34,974 nucleotides of DNA from Pseudomonadota bacterium (GTDB taxonomy: Bacteria > Pseudomonadota > Alphaproteobacteria > Micropepsales > Micropepsaceae), in the NCBI GenBank assembly GCA_029778105.1, contig JAKOQZ010000015.1, positions 1-34,974 of the forward strand, written 5' to 3'. Under the pieces are notes generated by a model that did no database searches, had not been told where the DNA came from, and was given only the letters and a program-made list of their open reading frames with translations. Below are positions 33,175 to 34,965 of this stretch, piece by piece. The number at the start of each line of letters is the position of its first letter. The first letter of the stretch is position 1. The position numbers and the translations under genes are program-made.

Positions 33175-34587
33175 GTGAAGGAAAGGCGAAATAAGGCGGC
33201 CAAGCGGCCCGCCCATCTGGAAAAGAACGGCCGCAAGCGGCCCGGGCACGCGGAACTGTCGACGCGCAACCCGCGCGAAGCCGCGCCCAAGCCGAAGGTC
33301 GAGCGCGGCCCGGTGAACGACGACCTGCTGCGGGCGCTGAGGGCCTGGGGCTCGGCCCGTCAGGGCGGCGAACAATCCGCCGACGACGCCCTGTCGACGA
33401 CGGGCAAGGCCGGGCGCTGGGAACTGAAAGGGGCGCTGGACCGGGTGTTCCGGCACTATGCGCGGCTGGCCTGGCTGATCCGCCGGCAGGGCGTGGAACC
33501 GACCCCGGACTGGATCTGGGCCGCCGCCAGCGTGGTGCTGGACGGCGCCCCGCTGGAAGAGGTGGCGCGGCGGCTGGCGGTCACGGCCGCCGATATCTCG
33601 CCCTTCGCCGGCAGGCTGGGCCGGATGGGCAAGGAAGGGATCGCCAGCGCGGCGATGCCGAATCCTGTTCGCGCCGAATGCCCGGACGATATTTATGAAT
33701 ATCTTTCAGTTGCTTACGGCGCAGAACTGACGCCGGAACTGAAGGCCTTAAACCATTCTCCCCCGCTGGATATCCGGGTCAACACACTCAAGGGCAGCGT
33801 CGACGAGCTGCTGACCCTGCTGAACGTGGGCGACACCGAACTGCGCCGCACGCCCTATGCGCCGCTGGGTCTCAGAGCCCGGGGCAAGCCCGATCTTGCC
33901 GTTACGGAAGCCTTCACGGCCGGCCGGTTCGACATGCAGGACGAGGGCTCGCAGATCGTCGCGGCGCTGGTGGACGCCGCGCCGGGGCAGCAGGTGGTCG
34001 ACTTCTGCGCGGGCGCGGGCGGCAAGTCGCTGGCGCTGGGCGCGGCGATGGCGAACCGGGGGCATCTGGTGGCGGCCGACACCAGCGCGAAGCGGCTGGC
34101 CCGGGCCAAGCTGCGCATGAAGCGCGCCGGGGTGGAGAACGCCGAGCGGGTGCTGCTGACCGGCACCGACACCGACCCCTTCCTGAAGCGCAAGGCCGGG
34201 CAGATCGACCGGGTTCTGGTGGACGCCCCCTGCTCCGGCACCGGCGCCTGGCGGCGCCACCCCGAGGCCAAGTGGAGCGGCGTGACCGACCTGGCCCGGC
34301 TGACCGCCCTGCAGGATGCGATCCTCGCCCGGGCGGCCCGGCTGGTGAAGCGCGGGGGGCGCCTGATCTATGCCACCTGCTCGATGCTGCCCGCCGAGAA
34401 CGCCGAGCGGGCCGCCGCCTTTCTGGCCGCCCACCCCAACTTCCGGCGGATCGACGCGGCCGAGGTGTGGGCCCGGGCGATCCCCGCCGTGCCCTATCCC
34501 GGCCGCGACCGCGCCATGCTGCAGCTGACGCCCTTCCAGCACGGCACGGACGGGTTTTTCGCTGCGATCTTCGAGCGGACGGCCTGA
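33175..34587 (+). CDS. RsmB/NOP family RNA (cytosine-5) methyltransferase
   Basis: 'VVDFCAGAGGKSLALGAAMANRGHLVAADTSAKRLARAKLRMKRAGVEN', 'RVLVDAPCSGTGAWRRHPEAKW', 'LIYATCSMLPAENAE' (PCSGxG and TCS catalytic motifs). Confidence 0.95.
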   Translation: MKERRNKAAKRPAHLEKNGRKRPGHAELSTRNPREAAPKPKVERGPVNDDLLRALRAWGSARQGGEQSADDALSTTGKAGRWELKGALDRVFRHYARLAWLIRRQGVEPTPDWIWAAASVVLDGAPLEEVARRLAVTAADISPFAGRLGRMGKEGIASAAMPNPVRAECPDDIYEYLSVAYGAELTPELKALNHSPPLDIRVNTLKGSVDELLTLLNVGDTELRRTPYAPLGLRARGKPDLAVTEAFTAGRFDMQDEGSQIVAALVDAAPGQQVVDFCAGAGGKSLALGAAMANRGHLVAADTSAKRLARAKLRMKRAGVENAERVLLTGTDTDPFLKRKAGQIDRVLVDAPCSGTGAWRRHPEAKWSGVTDLARLTALQDAILARAARLVKRGGRLIYATCSMLPAENAERAAAFLAAHPNFRRIDAAEVWARAIPAVPYPGRDRAMLQLTPFQHGTDGFFAAIFERTA

Positions 34588-34965
34588 GGCCGCGCGCCGG
34601 GACGCGGCGCGGGCCGGGCCCGCCGCCGGTTCGGCGAGGCGGCAGACGGCGTTCGCCAGCGCGACCAGCTGCCTGACCTCGCGCATCTCGGCCCGCCATG
34701 CGGCGCGGAGCGCCCTCGCCTCGGCCGTGCGCCGGCCATGCTTGAGCGCATTGCGGTTGCCCGGCTGCCCGCCGCGCCGCCGGCGGGGCGGGCATTCGTT
34801 TGTCGGTTTTTGCGAGGCCGGGCGGGTGGCCACGTATTCGTTTGTCGCTTTTTGCGAATTCCCGGCGGGACGCGCGTCTTCGTTTGTCGCTTTTCGCGAA
34901 TCCGGATGGGCGCGCGGGTCTTCGTTTGTCGCCGAAGACGACGATGTCGCGATTTTGCCCTGCAT
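33748..34965 (-). CDS. Repeat-containing hypothetical protein ((K)ATNE repeats + GNRNALKHGRRTAEARALR domain); only the part outside rsmB (about 34588-34965) is credible
   Basis: MQGKIATSSSSATNEDPRAHPDSRKATNEDARPAGNSQKATNEYVATRPASQKPTNECPPRRRRGGQPGNRNALKHGRRTAEARALRAAWRAEMREVRQL; the downstream open frame is antisense to rsmB and likely spurious; the start may lie beyond the window. Confidence 0.45.
   Translation of the reverse strand: MQGKIATSSSSATNEDPRAHPDSRKATNEDARPAGNSQKATNEYVATRPASQKPTNECPPRRRRGGQPGNRNALKHGRRTAEARALRAAWRAEMREVRQLVALANAVCRLAEPAAGPARAASRRAASGRPLEDRSEKPVRAVLEGRQLQHGAVAAGIGHGGDRPGPHLGRVDPPEVGVGGQKGGGPLGVLGGQHRAGGIDQAPPALHQPGRPGEDRILQGGQPGQVGHAAPLGLGVAPPGAGAGAGGVHQNPVDLPGLALQEGVGVGAGQQHPLGVLHPGALHAQLGPGQPLRAGVGRHQMPPVRHRRAQRQRLAARARAEVDHLLPRRGVHQRRDDLRALVLHVEPAGREGFRNGKIGLAPGSETQRRIGRAAQFGVAHVQQGQQLVDAALECVDPDIQRGRMV
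34795..34942. repeat. Four-copy tandem repeat, exact 42-bp period, core TTCGTTTGTCGCTTTTTGCGAA
   Basis: Core starts at 34795, 34837, 34879 and 34921; 'ttcgtttgtcg' identical in all four; the fourth copy is partial. Confidence 0.9.

Follow-up and report, generated by a model that had tools for sequence, protein, structure and literature searches.

Arrays of a short A-rich word in a Micropepsaceae genome: a genome-wide, co-oriented sequence family that may provide binding sites

A tandem repeat that lies in an open reading frame raises a key question: is it kept for the peptide that it encodes, or is it a signal in the DNA or RNA itself? One end of the window, that is, the whole analyzed stretch of 34,974 nucleotides (contig JAKOQZ010000015.1, Micropepsaceae), poses this question. 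The 11-mer TTCGTTTGTCG occurs there at 34795, 34837, 34879 and 34921, in steps of 42 bp and with diverged, GC-rich linkers, and the minus-strand span 34793-34932 carries four CGACAAACGAA copies with the same period. Tandem repeats finder (TRF) assigned its top score in the window, 158, to 34795-34932 (3.3 copies, 81% match), while in the shuffled window the 11-mer occurred 0.04 times on average and at most once. Sequence inspection, TRF and shuffling thus bear out the preliminary description, which had placed four copies at these positions. Its term "exact tandem repeat" is appropriate for the core and not for the rest, since the linkers diverge, one of the four copies (at 34921) has lost the A-run and GAAT is replaced by GAAG in two. 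All four core sites, identified from their sequence, are on the minus strand and belong to a genome-wide family: site 1 (AAAAACCGACAAACGAATG, 34793..34811), site 2 (AAAAAGCGACAAACGAATA, 34835..34853), site 3 (AAAAGCGACAAACGAA, 34879..34894, followed by GA instead of TR) and site 4 (CGACAAACGAA, 34921..34931, without the A-run), which is probably a decayed copy. The array stops approximately 40 bp short of the contig end.

In the list of open reading frames, the array occupies the first part of a 405-aa frame (33748..34965, minus strand), and it is directly followed by a domain, GGQPGNRNALKHG, at 34627..34791 on the same strand. Substitutions in the GGQPGNRNALKHG region relative to two relatives amount to 10/8/25 and 14/10/19 at codon positions 1/2/3, and this third-position excess indicates that the region is coding. 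The 3' extent of the frame is probably not real coding sequence, because its part at 33748-34587 runs antisense through most of an rsmB-like gene (33175..34587, plus strand; a 16S rRNA m5C methyltransferase, named from sequence); a stop-free frame of this kind is typical of the antisense strand of GC-rich genes. No array was found downstream of the rsmB orthologues in four congeners (G001, G002, G003 and G004), and the window array is therefore a local gain. Its place is the 5' portion of a gene encoding a GGQPGNxNALKHG protein, and there it is probably translated as a tolerated linker.

The idea that the repeat belongs specifically to the window gene was not supported; this gene is one location among many. 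On the minus strand, the word (hereafter the A word) reads AAAAnCGACAAACGAATR, an A-rich sequence of approximately 20 letters whose middle triplet AAA may be replaced by GTT, GAA or ATT. Besides the window array, approximately 13 loci in the genome of the window (G000) carry it. TTCGTTTGTCG was counted 22 times in G000 and 27 times in its congener G001 (MAG SJ623, JADZAI01), compared with 1 and 0 for reversed-pattern controls, and the 13-mer CGACAAACGAATR was counted 19 and 24 times, with 0 in both reversed controls. In most family genomes, counts of this 13-base core are close to background, with 4 matches each in the congener G002 and in G012, a member of another genus, and 0-3 in the remaining family genomes. 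When the A-run was combined with a free middle triplet, nearly all matches in the genus had AAA, GAA, GTT or ATT, and the GTT type was also present in G003. The word is the top over-represented one in the intergenic DNA of G000 and G001, although not in that of G003. The mismatch spectrum is sharp, with 18 exact matches, 6 with one mismatch and then background, in a data set in which several contigs had been chosen for carrying the word; most of the genomes are MAGs, gene calling relied on a simple codon model, and several data sets were selected by the word.

A related longer word, CGAAAAACGCGAAAACGAGTCGTTGTGG (hereafter the C word), was found in G000 and G002. It contains a GANTC site (GAGTC), part of which the search patterns demanded, and the A word has no GANTC; the CcrM-type methylase domain PF01555 is encoded in all five genus genomes. 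Approximately 12-20 nt after the C word, L019, L026, L029, L242, L246 and other loci share another word, CCACAACATCT or CCACCAGATCT. The congener G003 (first 400 kb, L178-L197) lacks the A word and has a dispersed intergenic word of its own, CACTGTCATGCCCG.

Nearly all word loci are intergenic. Among 31 loci, 18 are in the same sense as the next gene, 5 oppose both neighbors, 4 lie between convergent genes and 3 are intragenic according to the gene calls (one of them owing to an over-extended start); the last has no assignment. Neighboring sites within arrays share the same orientation without exception (34:0). The spacing of sites over all arrays ranges from 20 to 117 bp, which contradicts the fixed 42-bp geometry of four helical turns initially suggested from the window; a CRISPR-like array, in which repeat and spacer lengths are constant, was rejected on the same spacings. 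The spacings cluster near multiples of 10.5-11 bp, a phase that cannot be separated from a three-nucleotide periodicity or from repetition inside the arrays.

Can the open frame of the window nevertheless be explained by its peptide? The GGQPGNxNALKHG domain makes it possible to address this issue, being present in 50 of the 96 family genomes, often in several copies. Up to 11 matches per family genome were recorded (the window at 34627-34791 on the minus strand, L022, L129, L130, L198-L213 and others), and the domain is often fused to or overlaps a helical partner protein; neither it nor its partners had a match above the cut-off in Pfam or NCBIfam. A GTT/AAA-CGAATR form of the word, [AG][AT][AT]CGAAT[AG], occurs within 300 nt upstream of the domain in the sense orientation at 20 of 38 loci and in antisense at none (shuffle mean 0.75), and the same holds for other genera (9 of 20). 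Within the open frames before the domain, the sites are spaced by multiples of three, as translation would require. The phase of the word relative to the domain is, however, spread over the three frames (10, 11 and 5 cases), and related genes read the same DNA as KATNEC, KSTFEY, KIDVRM, KSDVRI or KTEKRI. The occurrence of the word in all three frames indicates that the peptide reading is incidental and that DNA or RNA is what is constrained.

Selection at the protein level on a K(A/P)TNE repeat, with codons frozen by recent duplication, would fit the stop-free, in-frame 42-bp spacing of the window and the KxTNE frames also seen at C124 of G000 and C189 of G002. Yet most copies are intergenic, stops often follow directly (GAATAG, GAATAA) and the frames are mixed, so that this explanation is largely refuted already and we consider it extremely improbable; the suggestion that a peptide motif had been spread by duplication was not supported. 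The argument from the AT-rich codons of the core holds in part. ACA represents 3% of threonine codons, and four co-placed ACA codons are thus not expected from codon choice; the effect is mild for AAA (18%), while AAC (71%) and GAA (39%) are ordinary. The alternative in the preliminary description, constraint at the DNA or RNA level, is upheld by the many stand-alone non-coding copies and by the retention of the word across reading frames in related genes; for the recombination site that it also named, the analysis gave no direct evidence. The search beyond the gene and among the codons of homologues that it had proposed yielded copies elsewhere, instead of ordinary GC-rich codons and a core confined to this gene. 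A 29-aa frame at L047, considered as a leader peptide across both the A and the C word, was also discarded, as the frames differ between loci.

Thus, the word has the appearance of a DNA or RNA recognition site rather than of a peptide. Our preferred reading, proposed from sequence data and given a probability of only about 0.4, is that the arrays consist of asymmetric binding sites for a putative regulator that would tune downstream genes. A sequence-specific regulator or nucleoid-type protein would bind the tandem sites on the DNA of promoter and leader regions and, once bound, might tune the downstream gene or the array's own small transcription unit.

Orthologous promoters provide one line of evidence. 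The word is common to G000 and G001 at the promoters of purL, an SDR gene and a MoxR-type ATPase gene, and to G000 and G002 at those of a VOC gene and chaC (all named from sequence). Across four pairs of G000/G002 loci, 101 of 113 motif columns are identical (89%) compared with 496 of 853 elsewhere (58%), in alignments that were anchored on the motif; at one orthologous locus, the A site has decayed in G002. Many arrays lie approximately 40-190 nt downstream of TATATTCC, a sigma70-like promoter preceded at 16-17 bp by a TTGCCC/TTGAAC-like hexamer. The association was found in 8 of 8 cases in word-selected contigs, yet only 11 of the 31 TATATTCC sites genome-wide have an A or C word within approximately 200 nt downstream; TATATTCC was therefore rejected as an element-specific sequence in favor of a general promoter type, and the remaining sites are ordinary promoters or chance occurrences. 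At the VOC and MoxR genes, some sites precede the -35 box of the gene next to them.

Several other sequences were observed next to these arrays. Just upstream of the VOC gene (L021, L049), a conserved GTTCCCTATTTGTTC / GTTCCCTGTTTGTTC, which has the form of an alphaproteobacterial SOS (LexA) box, stands beside the core word. At purL in two species (L028, L043), the DnaA-box-like TTATCCACAG directly adjoins the word, and a similar TCATCCACAGG is present at L241. Following arrays or promoter-like sites, L019, L020 and L225 have in common a module that is first G-rich and later C-rich, GGGGAGG...GAAACAACCCC.

Another important question is whether the word acts in DNA or in RNA. The main functional rival is an unstructured, A-rich sense element in leaders and short stand-alone transcripts that would serve as the target of a small RNA or of an RNA-binding protein. 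This possibility, which we regard as rather unlikely, draws on the sense bias toward downstream genes (18 vs 5) and GGQPGN domains (20:0), on the position of arrays, often just 3' of a promoter-like site and also between convergent genes, and on the prediction that most A sites are more unpaired than average. The sites located 5' of an adjacent -35 box (VOC, MoxR) do not fit it, nor does any structural signal speak for it: Rfam searches with 20 loci gave no gathering-score match and, for the window, nothing beyond a hit by chance, and the folding of 17 loci revealed no excess structure (mean z 0.04). A structured small RNA was ruled out on these two results.

The main non-functional rival is a selfish or neutral dispersed short repeat, non-autonomous like REP, CIR or RPE. 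It would have expanded within this lineage, with insertions between genes or in tolerant coding linkers. Such an origin, to which we give the same low credence as to an RNA signal, is suggested by bursts restricted to the lineage, by near-identical copies in both coding and non-coding DNA and by the absence of the window array at rsmB in the four congeners. It is opposed by the strict orientation, by a unit of only approximately 20 bp with unrelated linkers, by the retention of the word at orthologous promoters despite diverged flanks and by the fact that no terminal inverted repeats were seen. Moreover, the RAYT transposase domain Y1_Tnp was found in none of the five genus genomes, while control genomes gave matches in the same search, so that mobilization by REP/RAYT was rejected. 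A phage or plasmid origin was likewise rejected because the array had no DNA match in plasmids or phages; viral contigs contain 18 matches to the word, single and scattered.

Searches of the literature by sequence and by topic found no description of the word, and it can be compared with known systems. The nearest described kind is the CIR (Caulobacter CcrM-associated intergenic) repeat (Chen and Shapiro 2003, reviewed in PMC2229807), whose unit of ~110 bp has two inverted-repeat arms and is absent from gene interiors (PMC2229807). Both are dispersed intergenic repeats of Alphaproteobacteria, the C word contains a GAGTC (in part demanded by the search patterns) and the genus encodes a CcrM-type methylase domain; the word is, however, ~20 bp long, non-palindromic and without excess folding, GANTC is absent from the A word in the window, and open frames before GGQPGN domains also carry copies, whereas CIR repeats are strictly intergenic. 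REP/REPIN sequences are similarly short, dispersed, mostly intergenic and sometimes arrayed, but the core CGACAAACGAAT is no palindrome, neighboring sites are co-oriented and Y1_Tnp is lacking in the genus. Rickettsia palindromic elements (RPE) are palindromes of 105-146 bp. They resemble the word in that the same DNA occurs both between genes and in open frames, and differ from it in that the word is short and asymmetric and its genic copies occur solely ahead of one domain. Direct-repeat operator arrays share the tandem, co-oriented AT-rich cores near promoters, a spacing near helical multiples and sites kept above their flanks at orthologous promoters (in the motif-anchored comparison given above), and are distinguished by less invariant sites, while here the linked genes have diverse functions and the regulator is putative.

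The binding-site reading is thus supported by near-invariant copies, intergenic placement, a single orientation, retention at orthologous promoters, promoter proximity, the sense-only occurrence before GGQPGN domains, the lack of excess RNA structure and spacings near helical multiples. It is weakened by the functional mixture of downstream genes, an uncommon trait in a simple regulon, by sites stricter than most operators, which recently copied DNA would fit too, and by arrays that lie between convergent genes or oppose both neighbors, as well as by the word-selected contigs, the confounded spacing phase and the A site decayed in G002. Protein binding, action on DNA in preference to RNA and a regulatory effect are what we infer from this balance. 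It is also conceivable, albeit very unlikely, that the GGQPGNxNALKHG family itself reads the word, its genes carrying their own site in any frame and the site having spread to ordinary promoters in one lineage.

A near-invariant asymmetric word that is kept as DNA across three reading frames falls outside the definitions of REP, CIR and MITE elements, and the window array is a clear case of an open-frame repeat liable to be misread as a peptide repeat. If a protein reads the word, a regulatory network specific to the lineage, together with a protein family not described so far, would become directly testable; if GGQPGNxNALKHG proteins were the reader, they would represent a self-disseminating regulator with its operators.
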